Source of the DNA: Patescibacteria group bacterium
GTDB lineage: Bacteria > Patescibacteriota > Minisyncoccia > UBA9983
DNA length: 15,058 nt
Direction of reading: 5' to 3'
Assembly: GCA_018827845.1 (NCBI GenBank)
Contig: JAHJXC010000045.1
Location: forward strand, 1 to 15,058
In this document: piece by piece, positions 1 through 14,138 of the stretch
Layout of the letters: every line of letters starts with the position of its first letter
Position numbering within the stretch: position 1 is the stretch's first letter
The notes under the pieces: model-generated
What the model saw: only the letters and a program-made list of their open reading frames with translations
The model's database searches: none
What the model was told of the DNA's origin: nothing
Program-made: the position numbers and the translations under genes

Positions 1-908
1 ATGGAAATTCTTTGCAAAAAATAGACGGGCAATGGAAAGTTGGCAGTCCAACGCCCGGAGCGCAAAATTCTGCGTCGACGTCCGACGTCGACGTTCCCGC
101 TCAGCAGCAATCGACAACGGTTGTCGATTGGCCGACTGAACCGCAGATATACGCCAATGCAGGAGAAGATAGAAATGCGGTTGCCGGAGCTGATATTAAA
201 TTTTCCGGCCGGGCGCTTGGTTTGCAAAAAGAGCCGTTGGAAAACGCCAGATATTTATGGAGTTTCGGCGATGGTGCCGGAGCAGAGAGCCAAAATGTTT
301 TGCATACTTATCATTATCCCGGAGACTATATAGTTGTTTTGAATGTAAGTTCCGGCAAATATTCTGCATCCGACAGATTATTAGTAAAAGTTTTGGAAAA
401 TAATTTAAAAATTATTGAGGCCAATGAAAATTATATAAAATTGCACAATGGCTCAAAATTTGATTTGGATATTTCCTCTTGGTTTTTGCGGGCAAATAGC
501 AAACTTTTTAAATTTCCTGAAAGCACCTTAATTAAATCAAGCGCTGATTTGTCTATACCATCCTCAATTTCCGGCATTAATGTAAATAATAATCAGACAG
601 TTGATCTTTTATATCCAAACGCTTCAATAGCATATTCATATTCCCCGACTCCAAATATTGAATACCCGGTGTCTAACATTGCTGTCGCAGAACCAAAACC
701 GACAACCGTTGTCGATTCCAGTCCAGAGGTAAAAGATGCCGGAAACTCGGCTTCTGACAACGAAGAAAATACTCAACAGACTGCAAGTGTTATCAGTGTT
801 GGCCAAAATAATTCTTGGGGACTTAAAAAATGGCTGGCAATAATTTTAGGAATTGGCATTATTGCCGGCGCTGGCCTTCTCATCATACGCCGCCAGAGTT
901 CTGTCTAA
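1..908 (+). CDS. PKD / lamin-tail-domain surface protein, C-terminal part (5' truncated)
   Basis: The reading frame is open from base 3, so the start lies upstream; the TTG at 12 is only an internal codon. The first visible residues (GNSLQKIDGQWKVGSPTPGAQN) look like the last strand of a lamin-tail domain (LTD). Next come an Asp/Gln/Thr-rich linker and a PKD domain, recognisable from YLWSFGDG, the downstream HTYHYPGDYIVVLNV and the end at about KVLE (base 410). A second, weaker LTD-like region follows (IIEANENYIKLHNGSKFDLDISSW), then a low-complexity linker. The end is a hydrophobic segment (WLAIILGIGIIAGAGLLII) followed by RR, which suggests a C-terminal membrane anchor with the domains outside. 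PKD and LTD modules are common in surface proteins; an adhesive or structural role is inference. Three palindromes lie in its linkers. The last 63 bases overlap the convergent gene on the other strand. Confidence 0.85.
   Translation, partial: GNSLQKIDGQWKVGSPTPGAQNSASTSDVDVPAQQQSTTVVDWPTEPQIYANAGEDRNAVAGADIKFSGRALGLQKEPLENARYLWSFGDGAGAESQNVLHTYHYPGDYIVVLNVSSGKYSASDRLLVKVLENNLKIIEANENYIKLHNGSKFDLDISSWFLRANSKLFKFPESTLIKSSADLSIPSSISGINVNNNQTVDLLYPNASIAYSYSPTPNIEYPVSNIAVAEPKPTTVVDSSPEVKDAGNSASDNEENTQQTASVISVGQNNSWGLKKWLAIILGIGIIAGAGLLIIRRQSSV
73..93. repeat. Odd-centre palindrome in surface-protein linker
   Basis: Perfect inverted repeat with 10-base arms (CGTCGACGTC and its reverse complement) around one unpaired C at 83. 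It encodes Ser/Asp/Val-rich residues in the linker between the lamin-tail end and the PKD domain. It is GC-rich compared with its surroundings. Confidence 0.85.
108..130. repeat. Odd-centre palindrome, copy 1 of TTVVD element
   Basis: Perfect inverted repeat with 11-base arms (CAATCGACAAC) around one unpaired G at 119, encoding TTVVD in the linker just before the PKD domain. Its core recurs at 700-714. Confidence 0.85.
700..714. repeat. Odd-centre palindrome, copy 2 of TTVVD element
   Basis: Seven-base arms (CGACAAC) flank one unpaired C at 707. The core matches the element at 108-130 apart from the centre base and is read in the same frame, again giving TTVVD. It sits in the second linker of the same surface protein, so the two copies bracket the folded domains. 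Confidence 0.8.
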
Positions 909-1940
909 CATCTTTTCAAAAGAGAATTCTTTGAGGATTTTTTGTTTGGCGTTTTGGGCAATGTTTTGAGTAAATTTTTTGTCTTCAATTAATTTTTTAA
1001 TGGCATCTGCTATTTCGTCTGGATTGGCGGGATTTATTAATAATCCGGTCTTTTCATTTTCTATAATTTCTGGAATACCGCCGACATTTGTTGCAATCAT
1101 TGGAATTTCTGCTAAACCGGCTTCAAGTAGAACATAAGGCAAACCTTCTTTAAGCGAGGGCAAAACAAAAATATCAAAATTTTTAAGATATCTTGCTGCA
1201 TCTGGTATATCGCTGATAATATTAAATTTTATGTCCGGAAATTTTTTTTCTGCCTCTCTGAGATATTCATGCCCCTTATTTTTTACGGCTTCACCGATGG
1301 TGCCGACAGTAAATTCTTTTTCCGTTCTTTCGCGAAAATCGTATTCCTCCGGCTTTATTCCGTTATGAATGGCAATCATTTTTTTTGCCGGAGCGATTTT
1401 GTTTTTTATGGCACTTTGATAATCATATTCTGAAACGCAGATTATTTTATCGTAAAAAAGACAGGTTATTTTACTGAAAAATTTTATTAAAGCGATTTGC
1501 CATATCGGCCTGACTTCATTAAATGTCCAGCCGTGGATGGTGAAAATTGATTGTATTAAGTATTTTGTATTAAGTATTTTGTATATTGCGATTGCGACTC
1601 CGGCAATTCCGCCGGCTTTGGCGCTGGAAACGTGGACTATGTTCGGTTTTGTTTTATATAAAATAGAAAGAATTTCAAAAAAGGCAAGAATGTCTTTGAA
1701 GATGTTTACATTTCGCTGAAAACCTTTAATTTCAAAATAGGGAACCCCGGCCTTTTTAAGTTTTTGTGCCAATGGGCCGGTTTCACCAGCAGCCACCATT
1801 GGCCTAAACCCTGCCTTGCCGGCAGGCAGGCTTGTTTGGGGCAGATTAGTTGCCAGATCATACACATACTTGCTTGCCCCTGCCCAAACAGATTTTGTTA
1901 TTATATATAGAATCCTTGTTTTATTTGATTTTTTAGCCAT
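846..1940 (-). CDS. GT4-family glycosyltransferase
   Basis: A 364-residue GT-B-fold enzyme expected to transfer a sugar from an NDP-sugar in the cytoplasm during surface-glycan synthesis. The N-terminal domain has the GT4-like opening ILYIITKSVWAGASKYVYDLA and the HGW motif (136-138). The C-terminal domain has GTIGEAVKNKGHEYL, then PSLKEGLPYVLLEAGLAEIP with the E-x7-E pair E265/E273 that contacts the donor nucleotide in GT4 enzymes, then GGIPEII and NEKTGLL. Donor and acceptor cannot be told. It starts at ATG 1940, only 8 bases from an extended -10 box, with no Shine-Dalgarno. It is divergent from the GT4 gene at 1965 and convergent with the surface-protein gene, overlapping it by 63 bases. 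Two in-frame repeat elements interrupt it: SLPAGKAG at residues 37-44 and a 14-base tandem repeat at residues 119-130. Confidence 0.9.
   Translation of the reverse strand: MAKKSNKTRILYIITKSVWAGASKYVYDLATNLPQTSLPAGKAGFRPMVAAGETGPLAQKLKKAGVPYFEIKGFQRNVNIFKDILAFFEILSILYKTKPNIVHVSSAKAGGIAGVAIAIYKILNTKYLIQSIFTIHGWTFNEVRPIWQIALIKFFSKITCLFYDKIICVSEYDYQSAIKNKIAPAKKMIAIHNGIKPEEYDFRERTEKEFTVGTIGEAVKNKGHEYLREAEKKFPDIKFNIISDIPDAARYLKNFDIFVLPSLKEGLPYVLLEAGLAEIPMIATNVGGIPEIIENEKTGLLINPANPDEIADAIKKLIEDKKFTQNIAQNAKQKILKEFSFEKMLDRTLAAYDEKASAGNNANS
1551..1584 (-). repeat. 14-base (two-heptad) tandem repeat inside GT4 gene
   Basis: On the plus strand the unit TTGTATTAAGTATT occurs at 1551-1564 and 1565-1578, followed by a partial copy to 1584. 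On the coding strand this reads as alternating AAATACT and TAATACA heptads. It encodes residues 119-130 (IYKILNTKYLIQ), just before the beta strand leading to the HGW motif. Confidence 0.85.
1810..1830. repeat. GC-rich bulged palindrome encoding LPAGKAG
   Basis: The arms CCTGCC and GGCAGG flank a perfect TGCCGGCA core, with a single bulged T at 1816. It is strongly GC-rich in an AT-rich gene. It encodes SLPAGKAG (residues 37-44) between the first helix of the GT4 fold and the next strand, where related enzymes usually have only a short loop. I recall the same peptide insert from many Patescibacteria proteins; that needs a database check. Confidence 0.85.
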
Positions 1941-1964
1941 TTTATTATATTATAACACCTAACT
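1941..1964. promoter_or_regulatory. Compact divergent promoter, both transcripts probably leaderless
   Basis: This 24-base gap separates two divergent start codons. On the minus strand, bases 1957-1949 read TGTTATAAT, an extended -10 (TGn-TATAAT), with 8 bases between the box and ATG 1940. On the plus strand, TATAAC at 1951-1956 also lies 8 bases from ATG 1965. With initiation about 7 bases after the -10, either transcript would begin at or next to its start codon. Neither gene has a Shine-Dalgarno, and no convincing -35 box was found. The minus-strand promoter is the stronger call. Confidence 0.6.
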
Positions 1965-3074
1965 ATGAGAAAAATACTCATTTTTTCAATTGCTTATTAT
2001 CCTCTTGTTGGAGGTGCGGAAGTGGCTGTTAAAGAGATTACGAATCGCTTGCCAGCCTTAGGCTGGGACATGATAACTCTTCGGCTTGATAAAAAATTAT
2101 TGAAATTTGAGAAAGTCGGCAATATTAATATTTATCGGGTCAGCGGGCCGAAATTATTTTTTCCGATTACTGCCTGTATTAAAGCAACACAATTACACAA
2201 AAAAAATAAATATGATGCTATTTGGTCTATAATGGCTGCTTATGCCGGTTTTGCTGCTTTGTTTTTTAAGTTAAGTCATCCAAAAATTCCGTTTTTGCTA
2301 ACGCTTCAAGAAGGAGACTCTGAAGAGCATATATTGAAGCGAGTGGGCATTTTTTATCCTTTATGGAAGAAAATTTTTGGAAAAGCGGATTATATTCAAG
2401 CAATAAGCAGTTATCTTGCTGATTTTGGAAAGAAGTACGGCGCCAAGTGTCCAGTGGATGTAATTCCGAATGGAGTAGATGTATATAAATTTCAAAATCC
2501 AAATGACAAATTACAAATAAATTTCAAGTTACCAAATGACAAATTGTTGATTACGACTTCACGGTTGGTGAAAAAAAACGCAATTGATGATGCAATAAAA
2601 GCTTTGCAGTATTTGCCGGGAAATATAAAGTTTTTGATTCTTGGTACCGGACCACTAGAGTCAAAACTTAAACTACAAACTACAAACTACAAACTACAAA
2701 CTAGAACGAAGTTCTTGGGTTATATTGATCACAGCGAAATACCAAAATATCTAGCAATAGCAGATATCTTTATTCGCCCTTCTCTTTCCGAGGGTATGGG
2801 GAATTCTTTTATTGAAGCCATGGCTGCTGGTATTCCGGTTATTGCCACATCTGTCGGCGGGATACCAGATTTTTTAAAGGATGGCGAAACCGGTCTATTT
2901 TGCGAAGTCCATAACCCCCAAAGCATTTCTGAAAAAGTAAAAATATTATTAGAAAATCAGGAATTAAGAAATAAAATTATAATTAATGCTAAAGAAATGG
3001 CTGTAAAAAATTACGACTGGGATTTAATTGCAGAAAAAATGAAAAATATTTTTGAAAAATTATGCGTATCTTGA
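1965..3074 (+). CDS. GT4-family glycosyltransferase
   Basis: A 369-residue GT-B glycosyltransferase. The N-terminal domain opens with ILIFSIAYYPLVGGAEVAV, the usual acceptor-side glycine loop (GGAE, 16-19). After VIPNGVDVYKF (167-176) the C-terminal domain has TTSRLVKKNAIDDAI, LGTGPLE, the DIFIRPSLSEGMGNSFIEAMAAG block with the E-x7-E pair E276/E284, then VGGIPDFL and DGETGLF. It probably adds one sugar to a lipid-linked or surface glycan; specificity is unknown. It starts at ATG 1965 directly after a divergent promoter, with no Shine-Dalgarno, and overlaps the next gene by 13 bases. Heptanucleotide repeat stretches are read in-frame at residues 175-194 (just after the NGVD motif) and 236-247 (after GTGPLESKL). 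The second has five 7-base units, so gain or loss of one would shift the frame. Confidence 0.9.
   Translation: MRKILIFSIAYYPLVGGAEVAVKEITNRLPALGWDMITLRLDKKLLKFEKVGNINIYRVSGPKLFFPITACIKATQLHKKNKYDAIWSIMAAYAGFAALFFKLSHPKIPFLLTLQEGDSEEHILKRVGIFYPLWKKIFGKADYIQAISSYLADFGKKYGAKCPVDVIPNGVDVYKFQNPNDKLQINFKLPNDKLLITTSRLVKKNAIDDAIKALQYLPGNIKFLILGTGPLESKLKLQTTNYKLQTRTKFLGYIDHSEIPKYLAIADIFIRPSLSEGMGNSFIEAMAAGIPVIATSVGGIPDFLKDGETGLFCEVHNPQSISEKVKILLENQELRNKIIINAKEMAVKNYDWDLIAEKMKNIFEKLCVS
2487..2545 (+). repeat. Degenerate heptanucleotide array with 33-base direct repeat
   Basis: Five consecutive 7-base units, each starting AAA (AAATTTC, AAAATCC, AAATGAC, AAATTAC, AAATAAA), run from 2487 to 2521. The 14-base string CCAAATGACAAATT occurs at 2499-2512 and again at 2532-2545. 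The two copies are 33 bases (11 codons) apart, so both encode PNDKL. The stretch lies right after the NGVDVYKF motif of the GT4 enzyme. Confidence 0.8.
2670..2704 (+). repeat. Five-unit heptanucleotide tandem repeat (AAACTAC)
   Basis: Four exact copies of AAACTAC (2670, 2677, 2684, 2691) and a fifth ending in G (2698-2704) lie inside the GT4 reading frame, encoding KLQTTNYKLQT. Seven is not a multiple of three, so a change of one or two units would frameshift the gene; three units would be in-frame. As present, the array keeps the frame open. Confidence 0.95.
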
Positions 3075-4067
3075 TTGCAACAGGGATTTATCCGCCTGAT
3101 ATCGGCGGGCCGGCGACTTACGCAAAAAATCTCGCAGATGAATTTTTAAGGCGAGGATGTGGCGTTAAGGTTATTACCTATAGCATAGAGAAGAAATTGC
3201 CCTTAGGTATCAGGCATTTCGTTTATTTTTTGAAAACAATTTTTAATTTTCGAAAAACAAGCGTGATAATTGCCCTAGATACTTTTAGTGTCGGTCTGCC
3301 ATCGGTTTTAGCCGCAAAAATATTTAGAAAAAAAAAATATTATTCGCACCGGCGGAGATTTCTTGTGGGAAAATTATATTGAAAGCACGGGCAATTTGAT
3401 AACGCTTAATGAATTCTATGCCAATATGCCGAAATTGTCGTTAAAACAAAAAATTATTTTTTTTCTTTCAAAATTTGTTTTAAAAAATTGCACAGCGCTT
3501 GTGTTTAGCAGCGAATGGCAGAAAAATATTTTTGAGAAGAATTATGGATTGGATTCCAAAAAATCTTTTATTATTGAAAATTTTTATGGCGAGAAAATTG
3601 CAAGCATTAAGCCACGGGAGAAAAATTTTATTTTTGCAGGCAGATTGATAAAACTGAAAAATTTGGAAATGTTAAAGGATGCGTTCAAGGAAGCGTCAAA
3701 AAAAGATAAAGGCATAAAACTTGAAATTGTGGAAAATTTACCGCATGAAAATCTAATCAAAAAAATCCAGAAAAGTTACGCAATAATCTTGCCCTCCTTG
3801 TCGGAAATCAGCCCTAATTTTATTTTGGAGGCCATAAGCGCGAACAAGCCTTTTATTATGACAAAAGAAACAGGATTGTATGAAAAATTAAAAAACACAG
3901 GAATTTTTATTAACCCAATGGATAAAGAGGATATTAAAGCCAAAGTTTTATTTCTTGATAAAGAGAAAAATTATTATGAATATAAGAATAGAATCGCGAA
4001 TTTTAATTTTACTCATTCTTGGCAGGAGATTGCCGATGAATTTTTAGAGGTTTATAAAAAATTATGA
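3062..4067 (+). pseudogene. GT4-family glycosyltransferase, frameshifted at a 10-A tract
   Basis: Two reading frames together make one GT4 enzyme of about 335 residues. The first (3062-3382) has the N-terminal glycine loop in ILIATGIYPPDIGGPATYAKNLA and runs into AAKIFRKKK before going off-frame. The second (frame open before the TTG at 3363, ending 4067) continues with IIRTGGDFLWENYIE, then FIFAGRLIKLKNLEML and PSLSEISPNFILEAI with an intact E-x7-E. The join falls at ten consecutive A (3328-3337); nine A would read R-K-K-N-I-I-R-T-G-G-D and restore a single frame. Nothing else looks decayed, so this may be a recent mutation, a sequencing or assembly error, or a frame restored by RNA polymerase or ribosome slippage. 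It overlaps both neighbours (13 and 4 bases), implying one transcript. Called broken only as the sequence stands. Confidence 0.8.
3328..3337 (+). repeat. Run of ten A at the frameshift site
   Basis: A homopolymer of ten A sits exactly where the GT4 reading frame changes from that of 3062 to that of 3363. Long A tracts are prone to replication slippage, to transcriptional slippage and to sequencing error. One A fewer rejoins the two halves. Confidence 0.85.
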
Positions 4068-5227
4068 AAATATTAAGCATAGGCACAGATAAAAATTTGT
4101 TTTACGAAAATTCTGAAGTGAGGCAGAGGATGATTGAATATGGAAATTTGGTTGAGGAACTACATATAATCATGTTTGCAACACAAAAATCCGAAATCCG
4201 AAGCACGAAATCCGAAACAAATTCCAAAATCAAAATTTCAAACAATACTTTTGTTTATCCGACTAATTCAGGAAGCAGGTGGTTCTATGTCTGGGACGCC
4301 ATAAAAATCGGGGAGGAAATAATTGGAAATTGGAAATTGAAAATTGAAAATTCGCTGGTAACAGCACAAGATCCTTTTGAATGCGGTCTTGTTGGCTATA
4401 GGATAGCCAAAAAGTTGAAGTTGCCTCTGCAGTTGCAAATTCATACCGATTTTCTCTCTCCATATTTTGTTCAACATTCAATGTTGAACAGGTTAAGGGT
4501 AAGGATTGCAAAATTTTTAATTCCCCGCGCCACTTGCATTCGGGTCGTTTCTGAACGAATCAAAAAATCAATACTGGGGAGGTTGAACCTCCACGGGGAG
4601 GTTCAACCTCCAATAATTGTTCTGCCGGTTTTTGTAGATGCGAAAAAAATTCAAGAAGCCCCAACTCGAATAGACTTGCACCAAAAATATCCGCAATTTA
4701 ATTTTATAATCCTTATGGCCTCGCGGTTAACTAAGGAAAAAAATATCGGATTGGCTATGAAAGCCGTGAAAGATCTTGTTAAAAAATATCCCAAAATAGG
4801 CTTAGTTATTGTTGGAGACGGCCCGGAAGAAAAAAAGCTCAAAGCTCAAAGCTTAAAGCTCAAAGCTAATGTAATTTTTGAGCCTTGGACAGATGATTTG
4901 ATTTCTTACTACAAAACTTGCGATGTATTTTTACTCACCTCAAATTACGAAGGATATGGCAGGACGGTTGTTGAAGCATTGGCAAGCGGCTCTCTTGTGA
5001 TAATGACTGATGTGGGAGTGGCAGGAGATATTGCCAAGGACGGATATAACAGCTTAATTGTGCCAGTAGGAGATAAAATCGGCCTGGAGCGGGCGATTGA
5101 GAAAATGATAAACGATAAGGCTCTCCATGCAAAACTTTCTCTTTCGTCAGAGAATTTAATTTACAAAATGCTGTCAAAAAGAGAATATTTAGAGCAATTA
5201 AAAAAATCTTGGGAAGCTTATTTATGA
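4064..5227 (+). CDS. GT4-family glycosyltransferase
   Basis: A 387-residue GT-B enzyme. The N-terminal half includes TAQDPFECGLVGYRIAK and LQIHTDF, typical of GT4 enzymes in which this His lies near the donor site. The C-terminal half has ILMASRLTKEKNIGLAM, IVGDGPEEKKL, VFLLTSNYEGYGRTVVEALASGSLVIMTDVG (E-x7-E pair E297/E305) and DGYNSLIVPVGD. It is expected to act in the cytoplasm on surface glycan; donor unknown. Its ATG overlaps the upstream stop (ATGA, 4064-4067), and its own stop overlaps the next ATG in the same way, so translation is probably coupled. It carries five separate in-frame repeat elements, at residues 42-51, 87-96, 135-143, 171-183 and 257-269. Most lie between predicted secondary-structure elements, so the extra residues are probably surface loops. 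It is the most element-rich gene in the window. Confidence 0.9.
   Translation: MKILSIGTDKNLFYENSEVRQRMIEYGNLVEELHIIMFATQKSEIRSTKSETNSKIKISNNTFVYPTNSGSRWFYVWDAIKIGEEIIGNWKLKIENSLVTAQDPFECGLVGYRIAKKLKLPLQLQIHTDFLSPYFVQHSMLNRLRVRIAKFLIPRATCIRVVSERIKKSILGRLNLHGEVQPPIIVLPVFVDAKKIQEAPTRIDLHQKYPQFNFIILMASRLTKEKNIGLAMKAVKDLVKKYPKIGLVIVGDGPEEKKLKAQSLKLKANVIFEPWTDDLISYYKTCDVFLLTSNYEGYGRTVVEALASGSLVIMTDVGVAGDIAKDGYNSLIVPVGDKIGLERAIEKMINDKALHAKLSLSSENLIYKMLSKREYLEQLKKSWEAYL
4187..4214 (+). repeat. Four-unit heptanucleotide array (AAATCCG)
   Basis: Units at 4187, 4194 and 4208 are exactly AAATCCG; the unit at 4201 is AAGCACG. They are read in-frame as part of QKSEIRSTKSETNS, between two strands of the N-terminal GT4 domain. 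Confidence 0.85.
4322..4349 (+). repeat. Four-unit heptanucleotide array (ATTGGAA/ATTGAAA)
   Basis: Two ATTGGAA units (4322, 4329) are followed by two ATTGAAA units (4336, 4343). In a shifted phase these are AAATTGG and AAATTGA. The array encodes IGNWKLKIEN, just before the strand LVTAQDPF. Confidence 0.9.
4468..4490. repeat. Odd-centre palindrome in GT4 gene
   Basis: Perfect inverted repeat with 11-base arms (TGTTCAACATT) around one unpaired C at 4479. It has the same size and plan as the element at 108-130 but a different sequence. It encodes FVQHSMLNR. Confidence 0.9.
4576..4611 (+). repeat. Duplicated 17-base palindromic element
   Basis: The string GGGGAGGTTGAACCTCC occurs at 4576-4592 and 4595-4611, separated by AC. 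Each copy contains a perfect palindrome with 7-base arms (GGAGGTT) around a single G. The pair is read in-frame as GRLNLHGEVQPP, between the helix RIKKSIL and the strand IIVLPVFVD of the GT4 enzyme. Confidence 0.95.
4834..4868 (+). repeat. Five-unit heptanucleotide tandem repeat (AAAGCTC)
   Basis: Units at 4834, 4841 and 4855 are AAAGCTC; those at 4848 and 4862 are AAAGCTT and AAAGCTA. They encode KKLKAQSLKLKA after VGDGPEE. This is the same position in the GT4 fold as the unrelated AAACTAC array at 2670-2704 in a neighbouring gene. Confidence 0.95.
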
Positions 5228-6291
5228 GATTCTTAATTATTACTCAAAAAGTTGATGAAAATGATGATATTTTAGGATTTTTTCATCGTTGGATTGAAGA
5301 GTTTGCTAAACATTGCGAGAACGTGATTGTGGTTTGCCTCCAGAAAGAAGAATATGATTTACCTGCAAATGTTAAGGTTTTGTCGCTTGGTAAAGAAAAA
5401 GGAAAATCAAGATTAAAATATATTTTTAATTTCTACAAATATATCTGGCAAGAACGCAAAAATTATGACGCTGTTTTTGTGCATATGAACCAGGAATATG
5501 TTTTACTCGGTGGATTATTTTGGAAATTTTTCGGCAAAAAAATTTTCATGTGGAGAAATCATGGAAGGGGAAATATTTTTACGAGAATCGCAATAATATT
5601 TTCTGACAAGGTTTTTTGCACTTCAAAATATTCTTATACCGCCAAGTTTAAAAAAACAGAAATTATGCCAGTGGGAATAGATACAGAAAAATTCTTCGCC
5701 AAAGGCGGATCCGCCTCGGGCGAGAAAATTCAAAATTCAATTCTTTCATTGGGCAGGATTTCGCCGATAAAAAATACGCATGTTTTGATTGAAGCGTTGC
5801 GGCTGCTTGATGAAAAGGGCGTTGATTTTATCGCTAATATATACGGCAATGCGCCTAAAAGGGATTTAGAATATTATAAGAAGATAAGAAAATTTGGCGA
5901 GGGTCTGGAGAAAAAAAGAAAATTATTTTTCCACAAAGGTATTCCAAACCCTAAAACCCCAGAAATTTATAGCAAGCATCAGTTTTTTATTAATTTGACA
6001 CCCGAGGGCAGTTTTGATAAAACGATACTTGAAGCCATGGCGTGTAGAATTCTGGTCATTTATTCCAACAAGTTCTTGAAAGGAAAAATCTCTGATATTC
6101 TTTTGGTAAACCAAAATGACCCCATCAATCTTGCTCAAAAGATTGAATTTTTATTCAATCAAAAGAAAGCGTTTTTTGATGAAATAGGCAAAAAGGGAGA
6201 AATATATGTTATAGAAAATCATTCCCTGTCTCTTTTAATGGAGAAACTTATGAGCGTAATCACAAAAAAGTGTTATAGATACGCGGATTGA
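5224..6291 (+). CDS. GT4-like glycosyltransferase
   Basis: A 355-residue GT-B protein counted from ATG 5224. An in-frame TTG at 5209 is possible, but ATG 5224 overlaps the upstream stop as ATGA, like other genes here, and gives the usual N-terminus RFLIITQKVDENDDILGFFHRW. The N-terminal domain has IFMWRNHGRG, in the position of the donor-side loop. After IMPVGIDTEKFF the C-terminal domain has LSLGRISPIKNTHVLIEAL and INLTPEGSFDKTILEAMACRI. The spacing between the two Glu residues (E261, E270) is eight rather than seven, matching a GT4 subgroup recognised by GSxDKxxLEAMA. The function is sugar transfer in surface-glycan assembly, with substrates unknown. A 14-base palindrome is inserted at residues 160-164. 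This is the last gene before the promoter at 6296. Confidence 0.85.
   Translation: MRFLIITQKVDENDDILGFFHRWIEEFAKHCENVIVVCLQKEEYDLPANVKVLSLGKEKGKSRLKYIFNFYKYIWQERKNYDAVFVHMNQEYVLLGGLFWKFFGKKIFMWRNHGRGNIFTRIAIIFSDKVFCTSKYSYTAKFKKTEIMPVGIDTEKFFAKGGSASGEKIQNSILSLGRISPIKNTHVLIEALRLLDEKGVDFIANIYGNAPKRDLEYYKKIRKFGEGLEKKRKLFFHKGIPNPKTPEIYSKHQFFINLTPEGSFDKTILEAMACRILVIYSNKFLKGKISDILLVNQNDPINLAQKIEFLFNQKKAFFDEIGKKGEIYVIENHSLSLLMEKLMSVITKKCYRYAD
5703..5716. repeat. Perfect 14-base GC-rich palindrome in GT4 gene
   Basis: AGGCGGATCCGCCT is an even palindrome encoding part of AKGGSASGEK, directly after GIDTEKFF. That position is equivalent to the site of the heptad array at 2487-2545 in the GT4 gene at 1965. 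I recall GGSASG inserts from other Patescibacteria proteins. Confidence 0.75.
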
Positions 6292-6295
6292 TTTA

Positions 6296-6324
6296 TTGCA
6301 ATATAGGAAAAAGTGTGGTATATT
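6296..6324 (+). promoter_or_regulatory. Sigma70-type promoter for the aminosugar gene group
   Basis: In the 57-base gap 6292-6348, a -35-like TTGCAA (6296-6301) lies 17 bases upstream of TATATT (6319-6324), which is preceded by TGG and so forms an extended -10. Initiation would fall near 6331. A weak ribosome site, AAGGA at 6341-6345, lies only 3 bases before ATG 6349. This is the only same-strand gap long enough for a normal promoter, so a new transcription unit may start here. Confidence 0.6.
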
Positions 6325-6348
6325 TTTAAATATTAGCATTAAGGAATT

Positions 6349-7269
6349 ATGGATTATACAATGCAACCCTCGACAATTCTTATAACAGGAGGTCTCGGTT
6401 TTATTTTTTCGCATGTAACGGAATATTTCGTCGCCAAGGGCTGGCGTGTTATTGTTATTGACAATCTCTCTGAAGGCAGCCACCCGGAAATTCTCAATAA
6501 TACGTTTACCCACTATAACTATGACGTAGCAAATTACGGCGTAATTGAACTCATACAAAAAGAAAATCCTGATTTTGTTGTTCACGCCGCGGCAAATAGC
6601 GACGTTGATCACTCTATCAAAAATCCCCAAGAAATATTCCAAAAAAATATATTAGGGACTTTGTTTGTATTTGAGGCTTGTCGCGTTATTCCTAATCTTA
6701 AAAAGTTTATATATGTTTCAACCGATGAAGTGTACGGGGAATGCGAGCATCGCAAGCGCGAAGATGAAATTATTTTTCCCAAAAATCCATATTCATGCTC
6801 CAAAGCGGCTGGGTCACTTTTACGGATGGCATATGATAACACATATTCAAATCTTAAAGATAAAACAGCGGAAACGAGATTCTGCAATGTATTTGGCCCT
6901 CGTCAAGATATTAGAAAAATAATGCCACTTATTAAAAAAAGTATTGAAGAAGGGCATTCAATACCGCTTCATTGTGAAGGGGTTGGCTATAGGGAGTATC
7001 TATATGTCAAAAATATACCTCCCGTAATAGAGTTAATTTTAAAAAAAGGGAATCGAAATTACAATTTGACTCTTAATGATGGATTTACTGTTAAGGGACT
7101 TGTGAAAAAAGCCGAGGAAATCACCAAGGGGAAAGTAAAAACACACCCTGCTCATCGGCCAGGAATGGACCTTAAGTATCAAATGGACAATACAAGAATC
7201 AAAGATCTTGGGTGGAAACCGCTCTATTCTTTTGAAGAAGGATTAAGGGAATATTTATGCGAAAAGTAA
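6349..7269 (+). CDS. RmlB-like NDP-sugar 4,6-dehydratase (extended SDR)
   Basis: A 306-residue extended short-chain dehydrogenase. Close matches to the dTDP-glucose 4,6-dehydratase pattern are the N-terminal Rossmann loop ITGGLGFIFSH, the adenosine-ribose Asp (D38 in IDNLSEGS), AANSDVDHSI (RmlB has AAxSHVDRSI), the catalytic trio T125-D126-E127 in VSTDEVYGE, the Y148-x3-K152 pair in PYSCSKAA, and the C-terminal HRPGMDLKYQMDNTRIKDLGWKP. The reaction would be NDP-hexose to NDP-4-keto-6-deoxyhexose. One oddity: the third glycine of G-x-x-G-x-x-G is Phe (F20). The AAGGA site is close to ATG 6349; ATG 6361 is an alternative start. It overlaps the downstream aminotransferase by 13 bases, a pairing typical of amino-deoxysugar pathways. 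Confidence 0.88.
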   Translation: MDYTMQPSTILITGGLGFIFSHVTEYFVAKGWRVIVIDNLSEGSHPEILNNTFTHYNYDVANYGVIELIQKENPDFVVHAAANSDVDHSIKNPQEIFQKNILGTLFVFEACRVIPNLKKFIYVSTDEVYGECEHRKREDEIIFPKNPYSCSKAAGSLLRMAYDNTYSNLKDKTAETRFCNVFGPRQDIRKIMPLIKKSIEEGHSIPLHCEGVGYREYLYVKNIPPVIELILKKGNRNYNLTLNDGFTVKGLVKKAEEITKGKVKTHPAHRPGMDLKYQMDNTRIKDLGWKPLYSFEEGLREYLCEK

Positions 7270-8306
7270 AATTATTTAAACCGTTTGTTAGCTGGCATGC
7301 GGTATGGAATACCGTGAAGGTTCTTCGGAGCGGACAGCTCGCCGAGGGGCCGCGGGTGAAGGAATTTGAAGAAAAATTTGGACAGAGGTTTGGTTTGTCG
7401 AACGTACTGGCTGTTAATTCTGGAACAACCGCGCTTGAACTTGCCTATGAGCTTGCGGGAATAAGTAAGGGCGATGAAGTGATTACCCCCGTACTCACCT
7501 GCACCGCAACTAATATCCCGCTTGCGCGCAGGGGGGCGAATATAGTGTTTGCCGATATTGAGCGCGATTTGAATATTAGCGTTGAGGATGTGAAAAAGAA
7601 AACCACTCCGCAAACAAGGGCGATTGTGTTTGTGCATTTTGGCGGAAATAATCGCGGGCTTCGCGAATTGATTGATTTCGCGCGCGAGAAAAATATCATT
7701 CTTATTGAAGACGCCGCGCAGGCGGTCGTTTCTGATTTCTGGGGCAAGGCGGATTTCACGTGCGTATCGCTTCAGGCAATCAAAACGCTTACGTCAGGAG
7801 ATGGCGGAATACTTGTTTGCAAGGACAATGCTCTTTATGATAAGGGGAAACGTCTTCGCTGGTTCGGATATGACAGAGAGAAAAAACAAAAATTTGGCGA
7901 CACTGATTTAGTTGAAGCGGGCTACAAATATCATATGAATGATGTGAGTGCCGCGATTGGACTTGGCAACTTCAAAGTGTTTGATAAAATTGCTGCTCAC
8001 CACAAAGATTTAATGAAAGCGTACCAAGAGGGCGGGATCGCGGCATATCCGTGGTTTGCGTTTGTCTTGACCGATAAGCGCGACGCATTGAAAGAGTATT
8101 TGAAAAAATATGGCATTGATTCGGGGATGCATCACTATCGAAACGATCAATACACGATTTTTGGAGGAAGGAAAAAGTTCTCCATGATGGATGAGTTGGA
8201 AAACAAATACCTTTTATTGCCTTTGCATATGGGAGTGAGTGTGGCTGACGCAAGAAAGATTTGCAAACTTGTACATAATTTTAATGAAGTACCAAAATCC
8301 AACTGA
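7257..8306 (+). CDS. DegT/DnrJ/EryC1/StrS-family sugar aminotransferase
   Basis: A 349-residue PLP enzyme (fold type I) that would aminate the keto-sugar made by the dehydratase next to it. Seen in order: GQLAEGPRVKEFEEKF, the phosphate-binding NSGTTALELA (54-63), DEVITPVLTCTATN, the PLP-ring Asp D152 and Gln155 in IEDAAQA, the Schiff-base lysine K176 in SLQAIKTLTSGDGG, and a C-terminal MHHYRNDQY that matches the usual substrate-loop His region. Whether it makes a 3-amino or 4-amino sugar cannot be told. It is slightly shorter than common members because the C-terminal domain is trimmed. AAGGG lies upstream of ATG 7257. Its DNA is more GC-rich than the GT4 genes upstream (33 G+C of 60 at 7321-7380, against 20 of 60 at 3661-3720), so a separate origin is possible. 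Confidence 0.9.
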   Translation: MRKVKLFKPFVSWHAVWNTVKVLRSGQLAEGPRVKEFEEKFGQRFGLSNVLAVNSGTTALELAYELAGISKGDEVITPVLTCTATNIPLARRGANIVFADIERDLNISVEDVKKKTTPQTRAIVFVHFGGNNRGLRELIDFAREKNIILIEDAAQAVVSDFWGKADFTCVSLQAIKTLTSGDGGILVCKDNALYDKGKRLRWFGYDREKKQKFGDTDLVEAGYKYHMNDVSAAIGLGNFKVFDKIAAHHKDLMKAYQEGGIAAYPWFAFVLTDKRDALKEYLKKYGIDSGMHHYRNDQYTIFGGRKKFSMMDELENKYLLLPLHMGVSVADARKICKLVHNFNEVPKSN

Positions 8307-8847
8307 AATAGAATCTTCGTATAGCGAGAATGATCTTGGCAAAACGCTCTATGATTTAGTTTTGAAATACAAGCCAAAAAAGATTGTGGAGTTCGGTGTT
8401 CTTTATGGCTATTCAACGGTTGCTATGGCAATGGCGCTTGATGAGATTGGCGAGGGGCATATCTACGCTAATGATCTTTTTGAAGATTACTCGTTTAAGC
8501 ATGCCACCATGCAAGAAGTGCAAGACAACATTAACCGTTACGGTCTTACGAAATATGTTACGTTGTCAAAAAATAATTTTGATGAATGGTTGGTACGGCC
8601 CGAGGACTTTGATTTTCTGCATATTGATGTGTCCAACAAGGGCGATACGATAGAGCATCTTTACGAATCAATAAAAGATCGGGTTGCGCGCGGGGCGGTT
8701 GTTGTTTTTGAGGGCGGGTCAGAGGAGCGTGATAATGTGGAATGGATGACTAAATACAAGGAGAAAAAAATCCGCGACACTAACGTCCCTTTTAAAATCA
8801 TTGACCCGCACTTTCCTTCATTATCAATAATTACAAAAGCAAAATGA
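8284..8847 (+). CDS. Class I SAM-dependent methyltransferase (possible sugar methyltransferase)
   Basis: A 187-residue protein with a Rossmann-type SAM site: motif I is VEFGVLYGYSTVAMAMAL, followed by GHIYANDLFED in the motif II position, and FDFLHIDVSNKGDTIEHLYESI with ARGAVVVFEGG as the later strands. This resembles methyltransferases of the Methyltransf_24/O-methyltransferase kind found in sugar-biosynthesis loci. I infer methylation of the nucleotide sugar or glycan, on N or O. ATG 8284 is chosen over the in-frame GTG at 8239 because the longer form adds residues with no match to the fold. With this start it overlaps the aminotransferase by 23 bases, and its stop shares ATGA with the next gene. 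No Shine-Dalgarno. Confidence 0.75.
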   Translation: MKYQNPTEIESSYSENDLGKTLYDLVLKYKPKKIVEFGVLYGYSTVAMAMALDEIGEGHIYANDLFEDYSFKHATMQEVQDNINRYGLTKYVTLSKNNFDEWLVRPEDFDFLHIDVSNKGDTIEHLYESIKDRVARGAVVVFEGGSEERDNVEWMTKYKEKKIRDTNVPFKIIDPHFPSLSIITKAK

Positions 8848-9656
8848 AGAAATTAGCAGTAGTGGCGACGGGGTGGCATTTTCCCCTTCACTTTTACCAA
8901 AAAATTGCAGAACAAAGGATTCCTAAAGGATGGGAAGTTGATTTATTTTGCGTCTCGCACCGCGATCCATCATATGCGTTGGAAGAGAAACAACAAGTAA
9001 TTATGAATCTTGGAGATTCTCGCCGCGAACGATACGATAAAATTTTATATAAAAAAATAGCAACAGTTGATGATATTAAATTACTTGGGTGGCACTATAC
9101 TTTAGAGCCGAATACTATTGGTGATTGGGGCAACACGAACCAGTGGCTTGAAAAAAATGATTACCGCGCGTATGATAAATTTCTTTTTACTCATGATGAT
9201 AATTTTATCTTAACCGACAAAATGTTTGAAGATATTTTGCCACAAGACGATTGGCTTATTCTAACTAACTCTACCGGCAACGCGCAAAGACGCTTGCGAC
9301 AATGGCTTCGTCTTCCAAAACCGTTTGCCGTGCGTGGTTCTTTTGAATTTTTTACGAAAGGGATTCTTGATATGATTGGCGGAAAATTCGACCTTTCCGA
9401 GACAACTCTTACTCGGGAAGGAAAATTTACCACATTGGGTTCTTTTACGGAACTAAGCGATTGGAATACCACGGTAACACCGCTTGCCAATCTCTTGAAA
9501 GAGAAAAATCTTTTAAGCAAAGTAAAATCTCTTTCTTCATATTATCGCATGAGCATTTATTGTTTTGAGGGAGAGAGAGGATATATTCATAAAACTGAAT
9601 TATCTAATACCAAAGAAGAAGAAAAAGGTTTAGACATAATTGAAAAACATGGTTAA
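8844..9656 (+). CDS. Uncharacterised GT-A-like protein with HDDN motif
   Basis: A 270-residue protein I cannot assign to a named family. It opens with a strand-helix unit (KKLAVVATGWHFPLHFYQKI) and DLFCVSHRDP, and has YDKFLFTHDDNFILTDKMFEDIL. HDDN (117-120) stands where GT-A glycosyltransferases carry the metal-binding DxD after a hydrophobic strand. RGSFEFFTKGILDMIGG (164-180) resembles the acceptor-side region of such enzymes. There is no membrane segment. It is coupled to the methyltransferase gene (ATGA, 8844-8847) and overlaps the next gene by 8 bases. Sugar transfer is inferred from the HDDN segment and the position in the locus; a sugar-modifying enzyme remains possible. Confidence 0.55.
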   Translation: MKKLAVVATGWHFPLHFYQKIAEQRIPKGWEVDLFCVSHRDPSYALEEKQQVIMNLGDSRRERYDKILYKKIATVDDIKLLGWHYTLEPNTIGDWGNTNQWLEKNDYRAYDKFLFTHDDNFILTDKMFEDILPQDDWLILTNSTGNAQRRLRQWLRLPKPFAVRGSFEFFTKGILDMIGGKFDLSETTLTREGKFTTLGSFTELSDWNTTVTPLANLLKEKNLLSKVKSLSSYYRMSIYCFEGERGYIHKTELSNTKEEEKGLDIIEKHG

Positions 9657-11007
9657 ATTTTTTAAAAATCATAAAATAGAATTTTTTATTTTTTTACTGG
9701 CTCTTCTTGCGAGGATATTATTGTTTTATATCAATCTTGAAGCGAATGGCGGAAATTTTGAGAATACCATACATGGCGGCGATTGGTATTTTGAAGTAAG
9801 CAAAAATTTATTTCTCGGCAACGGGTTTTCAATAGATGGACTTTCGCCAAGCCCTATACATGTGCCGCTATACCCGCTTTTTCTCGCGTTATCTCTTTGG
9901 TTTTTTGGAAGTTATAAGTTTGCCGTGGCGTCCCAAATAATCATTGGCGCCTTAATTCCGCTTATTGGCAGACGCGTATCCCTTAAACTAATTCCTTCTG
10001 AAAAAGTTGGTATTTGGGTCGGCATAGTTCTTGCACTCGAGCCGAGTTTTATTTTATTTTCATCTATTTTTATCACTGAAACATTGTTCATCTCTTTTTT
10101 TCTGTTGTTTGCGTTTTCTTTCATTTCATATCTTGAGAAGAACGACACAAGGTCGCTTCTCTTAAGCTCGTTTCTTTTGGGGATATCCGCGCTTACAAAG
10201 ACGGCAGTACAATTTTTCCCCGTCTTTTTGATCCCGCTTGCTTGGTGGTTTCTTCGCAAACGTCTTCCCTTAAAGAAGCTTGTTGTTCATGGCGCTTTAT
10301 TTATATCAATTTTCTTATTACTGCTTTCCCCTTGGGTTTACAGGAACTATAAAGAATTCGGTGTTCCCGGAATGACCATAATGCCTACTTTTAATTTTTA
10401 TGCGATTCTTGTGCCATCGGTTCTTGCGATAGAAAATAACACAGATTTCGCTTCAGGGCAGAAATCTTTTATAAACGACAGAGGGATAGACATGAAAACG
10501 CTTACTTTTGCGACCGCTCCCGAATTTAATAAAGAAGCATTAGATGTTGTAATTAAATATCCTGAAGCTCTTATGAAAGTTTTGGCTATAAATGCCTTGA
10601 CATTTTTTACGCACGATGGGATGCTTACCGTTCTTCAAAACGCCGGCATTACTCCCGAAGCATATCTTTCCAAGCCGGCAATTATGCTTTTATTGTCGTC
10701 GCCGATTGAATTTTTTAAAACGGTTTCAAAATATGCATCAACTTCTTTTATTCTGGTGCTGGTTATGCGTTTGTTTTGGGTACTACTTACCATATCTTTT
10801 TTAATAGGAAGTTTCATGCTTGCGCGCAAAAGAAAAATCACGGCCTCCATTGCTTTTGCTTTAGTTGCTGTCTTGTATTTTGCGATTACAACGCTCTCTA
10901 ATGGGCTTTCTGCGAATGCCAGGTTTCGAATGCCCGTAGACCCCATAATTCTCGCTTTAGCGGCTTATCCCTTTCTTGCATTTAAAAAAGACAATCTGGA
11001 TTTTTAA
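9649..11007 (+). CDS. PMT_2/GT39-like integral membrane glycosyltransferase (GT-C)
   Basis: A 452-residue polytopic membrane protein with about ten hydrophobic segments. The first is FFIFLLALLARILLFYI. It is followed by an outside loop with HGGDWYFEVSKNLFLGNGFS; the Asp (D45) matches the catalytic Asp that PMT/ArnT-type GT-C enzymes carry in their first external loop, and NLFLGNGFS is the usual continuation (NLLxGxGFS). The end has a short positively charged tail. Such enzymes take a sugar from a polyprenyl-phosphate donor and transfer it outside the cytoplasmic membrane to protein, lipid or glycan. A matching donor-making pair (GtrA-like and GtrB-like) lies at 13727-14840. ATG 9649 is preferred over TTG 9640; it overlaps the upstream gene by 8 bases. 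No Shine-Dalgarno. Confidence 0.82.
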   Translation: MVKFFKNHKIEFFIFLLALLARILLFYINLEANGGNFENTIHGGDWYFEVSKNLFLGNGFSIDGLSPSPIHVPLYPLFLALSLWFFGSYKFAVASQIIIGALIPLIGRRVSLKLIPSEKVGIWVGIVLALEPSFILFSSIFITETLFISFFLLFAFSFISYLEKNDTRSLLLSSFLLGISALTKTAVQFFPVFLIPLAWWFLRKRLPLKKLVVHGALFISIFLLLLSPWVYRNYKEFGVPGMTIMPTFNFYAILVPSVLAIENNTDFASGQKSFINDRGIDMKTLTFATAPEFNKEALDVVIKYPEALMKVLAINALTFFTHDGMLTVLQNAGITPEAYLSKPAIMLLLSSPIEFFKTVSKYASTSFILVLVMRLFWVLLTISFLIGSFMLARKRKITASIAFALVAVLYFAITTLSNGLSANARFRMPVDPIILALAAYPFLAFKKDNLDF

Positions 11008-11009
11008 AA

Positions 11010-12143
11010 ATGAAAATTATTTATATAACAAATGCGCGAATACCAACTGAAAAAGCACATGGTTTTCAAATAAGTAAAACATGCGAGAAATTTTCTGATT
11101 TTGGAAACGAAATTGAGTTATGGATTCCATATAGAAAAAATGACATAACAGATAATCTATTTGATTATTATGGAATAAGAAAGAATTTTAAAGTCAAAAA
11201 GATTTCCTGCTTAGATATAATCTTTTTGAGCCGTTATGTGGGCCCCTTTGCTTTTTACGCGCAGTCGCTCCTGTTTTCCATGAAGTTGTTTTTTGAAAAA
11301 GCAGAAAAAGACTCAATTATTTATAGCAGAGATATTCTTACTGTTTTAGTTTTTAGATTAAGAGGATTTGATGTTGTGTATAATGCGCACAATTGGTCTA
11401 AAAAAATGAAATGGTTTATGAAAATATTTTTGAATAAGGATTTAAAAATAGTCTGCAATTCAGAAGGAACAAGAAAACAAATTGCAAAAGACGGATTTAC
11501 TAATTCAATAGCAGTGCCCAATGGAGTTGATCTCGAGGACTTTGATAATTTAGAGGATAAATTTGAGATACGAAAAAATCTTGAATTGCCTGTTGATAAA
11601 AAAATAATAATGTATGTCGGGCATCTTTATGAGTGGAAGGGGGTGGATGTGGTGCTGGATTCCGCAAAGTTGTTTTGTGGCAAAAAAGATGTCATTTTCG
11701 TCATTATCGGAGGAGACGAAGAGGAAAGAAAAAAATACGTAACAAAAATAATAAATGAAAGTGTTAAAAACATGCTATTTTTGGGACATAAATTTAAAAA
11801 AGATATACCAATGTATTTAAAATCCGCTGATATTTTACTTTTGCCGAATATTGCAGTCACTAAAGAGTCTGTTAATTATACATCACCAATAAAAATGTTT
11901 GAGTATATGGCATCCGGGGTGCCAATAATTGCTTCAAATTTACCGTCAATTAGAGAGATATTAAACAAAAAAAACTCTTTTTTGGTGGAACCCAATAATC
12001 CAAAGGCCCTAGTCGGCGGGATAGAAAAACTTTTGAGTGATAATATTTTTGCAGAAAATATTGCCGGTAATGCAAAAAAAGATGTTAAAAAATATACATG
12101 GGACGAGTATGCTAAAAAGATTTTAAATTTTATAACAATTTAA
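11010..12143 (+). CDS. GT4-family glycosyltransferase
   Basis: A 377-residue GT-B enzyme. The N-terminus IIYITNARIPTEKAHGFQISKTCEKF is characteristic of a GT4 subgroup with an AHG(F/I)Q loop in place of GG. NAHNWS (125-130) is the donor-side loop, AVPNGVDLEDF ends the first domain, and the second has MYVGHLYEWKGVDVVL, FLGHKFKKDIPMYLKSADILLLPN and SPIKMFEYMASGVPIIASNLPSIREIL, with E298 in the usual C-terminal Glu position. It probably adds one sugar on the cytoplasmic face. It starts two bases after the GT-C stop and has no Shine-Dalgarno. Unlike the GT4 genes upstream of 6291, it contains no repeat elements: the loops equivalent to the insertion sites there are of normal length. Confidence 0.9.
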   Translation: MKIIYITNARIPTEKAHGFQISKTCEKFSDFGNEIELWIPYRKNDITDNLFDYYGIRKNFKVKKISCLDIIFLSRYVGPFAFYAQSLLFSMKLFFEKAEKDSIIYSRDILTVLVFRLRGFDVVYNAHNWSKKMKWFMKIFLNKDLKIVCNSEGTRKQIAKDGFTNSIAVPNGVDLEDFDNLEDKFEIRKNLELPVDKKIIMYVGHLYEWKGVDVVLDSAKLFCGKKDVIFVIIGGDEEERKKYVTKIINESVKNMLFLGHKFKKDIPMYLKSADILLLPNIAVTKESVNYTSPIKMFEYMASGVPIIASNLPSIREILNKKNSFLVEPNNPKALVGGIEKLLSDNIFAENIAGNAKKDVKKYTWDEYAKKILNFITI

Positions 12144-12769
12144 TGAATAAACGTTGCGTACAAGTTAATAAAGAACACTATTTTGGCGATAAATATAATC
12201 ATAAGGCAAGATGGTTAAGTTATTATTATCAGATAAAAGAAGTTATAAACTTAAAGCCGGCCAAAATTTTGGAAATCGGTACTGGGAACGGATTGGTTGC
12301 AAAATATCTGCGAGAGAGGAATTATAATTTAACCACCCTTGATTTGGACAAAGAATTAAAACCGGACATCACTGCCTCAGTGTTGAAGATGCCGGTTGAA
12401 GACAACAGTTTTGATTTAATTTTATGCGCCGAAGTTCTTGAGCATCTGCCTTTTGAAAATTTTTCGCAAGCGTTGGATGAAATAAAAAGAGTCGCAAAAA
12501 ATAATGTTATACTGTCTCTTCCCGACCATCGCCGCACGCTTCTTAATTTTACCGTCAAGTTCCCGTTCATTCGCCAGTTTAATATCTTCATAAAAATTCC
12601 CTCGTTCAAAAAACACAAATTTGACGGGCAGCATTATTGGGAGATAGGAAAGAGCGGATATTCCGTTTCTAAAATAAAGGAAAATATAAAGAAATCGGGA
12701 TTAAAAATTATAGATAATTTTGTGCCTTTTGACGCGCCATCAAATCATTATTTTATACTTGAAAAGTAA
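12143..12769 (+). CDS. Class I SAM-dependent methyltransferase (Methyltransf_11/25 type)
   Basis: A 208-residue methyltransferase. Motif I is KILEIGTGNGLVAKYL (41-56), followed by LTTLDLDKEL (acidic residue at the end of strand 2), ITASVLKMPVEDNSFDLILCAEVLEHLP (motifs II and III) and a C-terminal part with FDGQHYWEIGKSGYSVSKI, a pattern seen in small-molecule and sugar methyltransferases. The substrate is unknown; glycan or a lipid-linked intermediate is inferred from the neighbours. The ATG shares its A with the upstream stop (TAATG, 12141-12145), so translation is likely coupled. Its 3' end overlaps the convergent fucosyltransferase gene by 22 bases. Confidence 0.85.
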   Translation: MNKRCVQVNKEHYFGDKYNHKARWLSYYYQIKEVINLKPAKILEIGTGNGLVAKYLRERNYNLTTLDLDKELKPDITASVLKMPVEDNSFDLILCAEVLEHLPFENFSQALDEIKRVAKNNVILSLPDHRRTLLNFTVKFPFIRQFNIFIKIPSFKKHKFDGQHYWEIGKSGYSVSKIKENIKKSGLKIIDNFVPFDAPSNHYFILEK

Positions 12770-13692: not shown

Positions 13693-13726
13693 AGATTTGC
13701 TATAATATATACTCTAGATTGTTAAT
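13693..13726. promoter_or_regulatory. Compact divergent promoter between fucosyltransferase and GtrA genes
   Basis: On the plus strand, TGC-TATAAT (13698-13706) is an extended -10. Initiation near 13713 would leave about 14 untranslated bases without a Shine-Dalgarno before ATG 13727. On the minus strand, TATTAT (13707-13702) lies 9 bases from ATG 13692 and could give a leaderless transcript; this one is weaker. No -35 was found for either. The layout repeats that at 1941-1964. Confidence 0.55.
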
Positions 13727-14128: not shown

Positions 14129-14138
14129 ATAGCACAAG

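Follow-up and report, generated by a model that had tools for sequence, protein, structure and literature searches.

Heptanucleotide tandem arrays of a narrow size class within glycosyltransferase and housekeeping genes of Patescibacteria

Results

The window, the whole stretch of 15,058 nt analysed here, covers positions 1-15,058 of the forward strand of contig JAHJXC010000045.1 from a Patescibacteria group bacterium (GCA_018827845.1). Its GT4-type glycosyltransferase (GT) genes include one on the minus strand (846..1940; PF00534, PF13439) and two on the plus strand, 1965..3074 (family GT-B; PF00534, E 1.6e-43) and 4064..5227 (family GT-A; PF00534, E 2e-36), and these Pfam matches agree with the original prediction of GT4-type hosts. 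Six period-7 sites had been proposed in the three genes, of which a lag scan and TRF recovered three as strong heptad arrays and one as a strong 14-nt array, the other two being degenerate. The strong heptad arrays, detected by TRF and the lag-7 scan on the plus strand, are a perfect AAACTAC array of 4.9 copies (2670..2703; residues 236-247 of the gene at 1965-3074), a hybrid array of two AATTGGA-type followed by two AATTGAA-type units (4321..4352; around residue 92 of the gene at 4064-5227) and 4.9 copies of AAAGCTC with one substitution (4834..4867; around residue 262). The 14-nt array (1551..1584, minus strand; TRF and lag scan) consists of 2.4 copies of two alternating heptads and lies inside the gene at 846-1940. 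Both degenerate arrays were found by TRF on the plus strand: an AAATCCG-like array with 75% matches (4187..4217; residues 43-57 of the gene at 4064-5227), and 2.7 copies at 2500..2518, around residue 180 of the gene at 1965-3074, the proposed site 2487-2521 being a weak mixture rather than a single array.

At lag 7, three window arrays (2670-2703, 4321-4352 and 4834-4867) reached a score of at least 10, compared with 0.03 expected from 40 dinucleotide shuffles, and a period-14 scan added the array at 1551-1584. Of the periods from 4 to 30, the shuffles were exceeded by multiples of 7 and otherwise by a single 19-mer (4576-4612). The 19-mer was rejected as a tandem array, as it corresponds to an in-frame hairpin with 15-nt arms (4576..4612, plus strand; around residue 176 of the GT gene at 4064-5227) with a folding energy of -30.1 kcal/mol (z -5.7, fold of 4574-4612). 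Four GT genes (846-1940, 1965-3074, 4064-5227 and 5224-6291) together contained five lag-7 runs with a score of at least 9, a number reached by 0 of 500 synonymous-codon shufflings (mean 0.38, maximum 4) and 0 of 500 codon-order shufflings (mean 0.03, maximum 2). An excess over shuffled controls, set beforehand as the test, is thus present with both dinucleotide and codon shuffles.

Rickettsia palindromic elements are small repeats that are tolerated in frame within proteins; they are longer and palindromic, whereas the arrays described here are tandem heptamers. When three window arrays were folded as RNA, two were stemless and the AAAGCTC array formed a modest stem (-8.1 kcal/mol, z -2.7). 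Palindromic character of the Rickettsia type was not found in these three, and hairpins occur separately, as at 4576-4612. An Rfam search of the window yielded no family at its threshold, and a reading as an RNA family was set aside.

Relatives are rich in period-7 arrays, with no other period close in the stretches sampled. At score 12, period 7 ranked first in 2.69 Mb, with 97 coding arrays (18 for the next-best period) and 22 noncoding arrays (7 for the next-best); genes were called by a simple ORF script and the samples are biased towards GT clusters. At a score of at least 14, 35 arrays were present in 366 kb of GT clusters, while two other samples of 285 kb and 400 kb contained 8 and 5, respectively. 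In 100 kb of Escherichia coli, comprising two glycan loci, no period-7 array was detected. Coding and noncoding arrays were compared after removal of 16 that overlap ORF ends. Among arrays of at least 21 nt, 77 of 98 coding but only 6 of 19 noncoding ones measured 28-36 nt (Fisher p 1e-4 against the rest); the classes 21-27, 28-36, 37-48 and 49-57 nt held 18, 77, 2 and 1 coding and 10, 6, 3 and 0 noncoding arrays, respectively. By arithmetic from base counts, the 28-36 nt class occurs at 3.3 per 100 kb in coding and noncoding DNA alike, whereas coding DNA is poorer in the 21-27 nt class by a factor of about 7 and in the 37-48 nt class by a factor of about 19, figures for which the noncoding counts are small. 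Of the perfect arrays, none of 14 in noncoding DNA extended beyond 25 nt, and 27 of 49 in coding DNA were 28-35 nt long.

At the protein level, heptad-decoding peptides of at least 8 aa numbered 105 in 83 of 240 GT homologues (longest 11 aa), compared with 0 in shuffled or reversed proteins. All but two of those mapped fell on a few hot spots, GT-A residues 43-57, 90-92, 175-181 and 262-264 or GT-B residues 179-182 and 239-241, in site maps that exclude P0120 and P0156 (dropped for length); the window arrays of both plus-strand genes lie at such positions. In one predicted structure, the array at 2670-2703 forms a helix end and a loop (block pLDDT 95-96). Among homologues, a given variable segment repeatedly carries arrays, but of differing units. 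This supports the proposal that one period with changing units points to a generating process and not to ordinary conserved protein sequence. Neither a lack of excess nor conservation of the residues in orthologues was found outright; in one orthologue alignment minus-strand loci were left unturned, so that some orthologues are absent from it.

The clearest length steps were seen at GT-A 262, where the segment measured 14, 16, 21, 23, 28 or 30 aa in 117 of 120 proteins. Of the 27 nearest-neighbour pairs of unequal length at this site, 9 differed by 7 aa, compared with 1 of 84 elsewhere (p 8e-6), a control that counts gap runs rather than segment differences; differences of 2 aa were just as frequent, with 9 pairs. 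The remaining GT-A sites gave 7-aa differences in 4/58, 2/40 and 4/44. In GT-B, 7-aa gaps are also common off the array sites (27/181), and several of the 9/54 found at site 180 contain palindrome-like inserts or lack an array. At site 240, all 14 homologues with an array and 103 of 105 without one have a segment of 23 aa; with no net length change there, the array would have replaced native sequence, for which a slippage model needs both a +21 and a -21 nt step. Length steps of 7 and 14 aa were observed in protein-level comparisons: the last 254 residues of P0049 and P0050 are identical, and of two hot-spot segments the first differs by 14 aa and the second, which carries an array in P0050, by 7 aa. 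The array segment of P0031 is shorter than that of P0021 by exactly 7 aa.

AAA on the coding strand, proposed for nearly every unit, persists as a tendency, occurring in 49 of 79 coding arrays with a score of at least 14, with TTT in 19 of 79. Much of this bias can be due to stop avoidance, since, of 61 distinct units without a stop that were taken from proteins and coding DNA, 31% are also stop-free as the reverse complement, against 64% of composition-matched random units. Array starts are evenly distributed over the codon phases (30/25/24; coding arrays, score at least 14), in line with the idea that any frame is tolerated when the unit is stop-free. Where bases varied between copies (at least two copies of each base), the variants formed a single block in 20 of 27 columns, with 6.0 expected. 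The helical hydrophobic moment of used units (0.233) did not exceed that of composition-matched stop-free units (0.257, p 0.16), and selection for amphipathic helices is unsupported. A beta-like 7/3 periodicity was stronger for used units than for random ones (p 1.6e-8), probably as a result of base clustering within units.

The unit AAATCTC occurs at nine loci of the window's genome (G000), much as one unit is found at many loci in dispersed heptamer families of the STRR, TAACTGA or Geobacter type. Three copies of it were found in 15 of 379 genomes of the phylum; G000 alone gave 15 matches, which overlap, and the reversed control gave 0. With G000 excluded, 13 of 160 same-genome array pairs shared a unit compared with 101 of 6626 between-genome pairs, a value reached in 0 of 1000 permutations. 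The 18 arrays of G000 fall into 11 unit classes; they were partly found with an AAA-phased pattern, which inflates unit sharing in this genome. Of the 20 own-genome contigs examined, 8 were picked for pattern matches. Changing units had originally been set against the spread of one sequence, a contrast that these data do not support. Units tend to be used again within a genome, so local slippage would explain only part of the pattern.

Arrays are not specific to GT genes, although those in the window lie there: Pfam, applied to 10 of the 13 ORFs listed in the 2.69-Mb period survey, placed arrays also within aminoacyl-tRNA synthetase, rsmH-type and 5'-3' exonuclease genes, at those genes' own variable segments. 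Aminoacyl-tRNA synthetase genes are generally essential. In rsmH of related genomes, different units occupy one segment. Array-bearing segments of rsmH and gltX were not 7 aa longer than array-free ones, and 7 of 9 seven-aa differences in gltX were due to one protein with a palindrome-like insert.

Discussion

An excess of heptamers in bacteria is already published. In Mrazek (2007), as cited in PMC4692102 and PMC4679880, heptamers are the most abundant repeat class in most bacterial genomes, polymerase slippage over a 7-nt contact is the proposed origin, and coding regions are likeliest to hold units that are multiples of three. Compared with the long simple sequence repeats of these accounts, the Patescibacteria heptamers lead in coding DNA and are narrowly sized at about 28-36 nt. 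No named precedent had originally been given for coding-region arrays of changing unit in one locus; heptamer arrays in coding DNA as such have one in neuO of E. coli K1 (PMC3046976), in which N-terminal AAGACTC repeats of 2 to 93 copies form a highly variable on/off switch. Both systems have coding heptanucleotide repeats in a surface-glycan enzyme, three units giving one 7-residue cycle (PMC3046976); as far as that description goes, the Patescibacteria arrays differ in being internal, about 4.5 units long, of differing units and present in housekeeping genes too. Heptamer elements of four units, also within genes, are described for Geobacter metallireducens (PMC2700814), and dispersed heptamers for Beggiatoaceae (TAACTGA; PMC4679880) and Xanthomonas (GGGAATC; PMC4692102). 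The reuse of one heptamer at many loci, often in about four units, resembles such families, each of which, in the descriptions consulted, has a single named unit and mostly intergenic or regulatory readings, in contrast to the many units and narrow genic size seen here. Frame-locked heptamer arrays in Patescibacteria genes had no published account among the matches listed, which covered few subscription journals.

We consider it probable that the arrays are simple repeats which arise by multi-unit replication slippage or template switching and are limited by the reading frame in genes. In noncoding DNA, units could be added in any number; in genes, the frame would be preserved only where units are added in threes (21 nt, one 7-residue cycle). 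A surviving gene array would then be about 30-35 nt long, made up of a 7-nt seed, 21 added nt and a few nucleotides that match by chance, and the narrow coding size of 28-36 nt may reflect that 21 nt is the smallest frame-preserving step. Their persistence would be confined to segments that tolerate indels, for instance helix ends and loops, and would be possible in each of the three frames provided that the unit contains no coding-strand stop. Later slips would spread unit variants along the array at unchanged length, and point mutations would degrade it. Greater sharing of units within than between genomes would not be expected if local slippage started from random seeds, and the model leaves this reuse unexplained.

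Unit reuse and the distribution of AAATCTC would fit a dispersed element, with one or two self-copying heptamer families per genome reaching intergenic and, in frame, genic sites through insertion or ectopic template switching. Such an origin is possible but doubtful, as units are many per genome, rsmH carries differing units at one segment, the translated flanks of the G000 arrays appear unrelated in a by-eye comparison, and the search pattern inflates sharing in G000. It seems unlikely that a dedicated Patescibacteria copying process writes a genome-specific heptamer in three-unit blocks into tolerant sites, including those of housekeeping genes, and repeatedly overwrites native helix ends with frame-independent heptad segments. 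Phase variation, in which the arrays would serve, like those of neuO, as on/off contingency switches of GTs that work through frameshifts, might be expected from the higher array density in GT clusters and from one GT (G010, L044) that is broken at a shortened array. It is nevertheless improbable: the arrays are short and, within both GT families, internal, a homologue with 91% identity to the window protein has the peptides of arrays 2 and 3 in nearly the same form, and the presence of arrays in housekeeping genes, aminoacyl-tRNA synthetase genes among them, counts against switching. Moreover, 123 of 171 arrays are intact in long ORFs, by a criterion that favours intact genes and has L044 below its threshold; 6 were flagged as frameshift candidates and appear intergenic by eye, and 42 fit neither criterion. 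Maintenance by selection, whether on amphipathic heptads in the encoded peptide or on a nucleic-acid-binding site, could draw on the 7-residue cycle that a 7-nt array encodes in every frame and on the modelled helix end and loop, but is very improbable given the hydrophobic moments, the variable units, the arrays in noncoding DNA and the lack of an Rfam family at threshold in the window. That arrays mark recombination breakpoints of mosaic GTs is just as hard to credit, since a breakpoint lay within 10 residues of an array site in 1 of 12 mosaic pairs, namely the window protein and P0001, which diverge mainly up to residue 65, adjoining the array site at 43-57.

If slippage proceeds in frame-preserving steps, gain or loss of three heptamers at a time is a simple rule that can be tested, and it would explain how repeat units that do not fit the codon frame persist in genes, housekeeping genes among them. 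The bacterial preference for heptamers becomes testable through coding and noncoding size classes. The arrays flag indel-tolerant protein sites, and may be a measurable route to new protein segments.

Period-7 arrays in the window and in related genomes

A lag-7 scan of the window, contig C80 of its own genome G000 (558,660 bases, 95 contigs), detected three strong period-7 arrays where 0.03 were expected from 40 shuffles, and beside them a 14-nt repeat array at 1551-1584. The original prediction had listed six period-7 sites; these four were recovered, while 4187-4217 and 2500-2518 proved degenerate. An excess over codon-shuffled controls was seen as well, with 5 lag-7 runs in four glycosyltransferase (GT) genes of the window versus a mean of 0.38 after synonymous shuffling and at least five in none of 500 shuffles.

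Period-7 arrays are a habit of G000 and of related genomes. Around the GT clusters of the latter, 20 stretches (366 kb) contained 35 arrays that reached a lag-7 run score of 14, and any other period gave at most 3. At the same score, 80 named GT loci (1.29 Mb) held 47 period-7 arrays (next periods 5), 20 first-contig samples (285 kb) held 8, and 400 kb taken from G065, a genome in a single contig, held 5; GT clusters make up much of the DNA sampled for these counts. No period-7 arrays were found in two glycan loci (100 kb) of Escherichia coli K-12. When 2.69 Mb were divided with a simple ORF caller, period 7 led at score 12 in both coding (97 arrays, next period 18) and noncoding DNA (22, next period 7).

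Three copies of AAATCTC, a unit that recurs in G000, are present in 15 of 379 genomes of the phylum, with 15 overlapping matches in G000 itself. With G000 left out, arrays of the same genome had a unit in common in 13/160 pairs versus 101/6626 pairs between genomes. Local slippage by itself does not yield such sharing; a preference for particular units, or copying from one locus to another, may act in addition.

Array length and reading frame

After duplicates were dropped, 163 arrays remained, of which 117 lay within ORFs, 30 outside and 16 across ORF ends. Those of at least 21 nt were distributed over the classes 21-27, 28-36, 37-48 and 49-57 nt as 18/77/2/1 in coding and 10/6/3/0 in noncoding DNA. 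Set against the amount of coding (about 2.33 Mb) and noncoding DNA (about 0.18 Mb), 28-36-nt arrays had the same density in both (3.3 per 100 kb), and the shorter and longer classes were about 7 and 19 times rarer, respectively, in coding DNA, noncoding counts being small. Perfect arrays measured 28-35 nt in 27/49 coding cases, and all 14 perfect noncoding arrays ended at 25 nt or less. If arrays grow by whole heptamers, the coding size distribution is as predicted by selection on the frame, because only the addition of three units would preserve it within genes. One coding array alone exceeded 48 nt (53 nt, locus L233) and is consistent with the next frame-keeping class.

Unit turnover was analyzed in 93 arrays of at least 28 nt. 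Among 27 unit columns with two bases each present at least twice, 20 were split into single blocks (6.0 expected at random placement), and in columns with one odd copy this copy was terminal in 40/62 (27.5 expected). These patterns agree with the spread of a variant unit through an array whose length stays constant, together with decay at the ends.

Array sites in glycosyltransferases

A stop-free heptamer array encodes a 7-residue cycle and is therefore detectable in protein sequences. Among 240 listed homologues of the GT4-type genes at 4064-5227 (+; GT-A) and 1965-3074 (+; GT-B), including the window's own protein P0121, 83 contained 105 decodable heptad arrays (longest 11 aa), and shuffled or reversed versions contained none. 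All but two of the mapped arrays fell into four spots of GT-A (residues 43-57, 90-92, 175-181 and 262-264; 17, 6, 9 and 30 arrays) and two of GT-B (179-182 and 239-241; 26 and 14). Segments at these spots grade from perfect to decayed; at GT-A residue 262, some heptad peptide matched with at most 4 mismatches over 11 aa in 83/120 homologues, compared with 5/120 segments after shuffling and between 0 and 17 of 120 for each of four controls taken from other segments. When the protein encoded at 1965-3074 was modelled with AlphaFold2 (mean pLDDT 89), residues 236-247 formed a helix end and loop (block pLDDT 95-96), and residues 175-185 covered the last part of a short helix plus a loop (block pLDDT 81 and 69).

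The GT-A 262 segment measured 14, 16, 21, 23, 28 or 30 aa in 117/120 homologues, and unequal nearest-neighbour pairs differed by exactly 7 aa in 9/27 cases versus 1/84 gap runs in other parts of these proteins. The nine pairs derive from about six proteins whose length is unusual, and differences of 2 aa are equally frequent. P0049 and P0050 are identical over their last 254 residues and differ by 14 and 7 aa in two hot-spot segments, the second of which carries an array in P0050; compared with P0021, exactly 7 aa of the array segment are missing from P0031. Against a general 7-aa rule, however, count the other three GT-A sites (7-aa steps in 4/58, 2/40 and 4/44 unequal pairs), the frequent 7-aa gaps of GT-B away from array sites (27/181), the 23-aa segment at GT-B site 240 with or without an array, and the tRNA synthetase gene gltX, where most 7-aa differences are due to one palindrome-like insert. 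A palindrome-like peptide insert was seen in the gltX protein P0309.

Short in-frame palindromic inserts occur in adjoining GT genes of the window (1808-1830, 4576-4612, 5700-5722), and similar ones at the same GT site in loci L044 and L244. L044 (G010:C52) contains a GT gene that is interrupted at a shortened AAAGCTG array, the sole out-of-frame array seen. The breaks in the homologues of 4064-5227 in L244 (G083:C6) and L246 (G047:C9) are caused by, or adjoin, palindromic repeats situated at or close to the hot spot near residue 176. A further GT gene of the window (3062-4067) is split into two overlapping ORFs beside a ten-A run (3328-3337), through homopolymer frameshift, assembly error or decay.

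Arrays in housekeeping genes

AAATCTC arrays of G000 lie inside a glutamyl-type tRNA synthetase (gltX), a MraW-type methylase (rsmH), a 5'-3' exonuclease and ORFs named cysS and metG by eye alone; ORFs named valS and thrS, likewise by eye alone, carry arrays of other units. Contig C19 of G000 has two AAATCTC arrays (384-414 and 3547-3577) in opposite orientation, 3.1 kb apart and both in ORFs. Hosts in relatives include a Mur ligase, three further tRNA synthetases, a type IV leader peptidase, a peptidyl-tRNA hydrolase and one GT. Among 30 rsmH orthologues, four besides G000 have an array of a different unit in the same segment, two of only 17-18 nt; among 30 of gltX, one (L297) does, and three have arrays elsewhere. 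Decodable arrays are present in 5 of 120 gltX homologues, the G000 protein among them, and in each case occupy residues 313-324.

Discussion

Among the long simple repeats of bacteria, heptamers were described as the most frequent class, and a 7-nt polymerase contact was proposed for them (Mrazek 2007, as cited in PMC4692102 and PMC4679880); a later survey reports 4-11 nt repeats as normally or weakly over-represented (PMC4060949). Coding-DNA heptamers are described as a switch in neuO (PMC3046976), and genome-specific heptamer families in Geobacter (PMC2700814) and Beggiatoaceae (PMC4679880). The gene arrays of these Patescibacteria are classed here among the heptanucleotide repeats.
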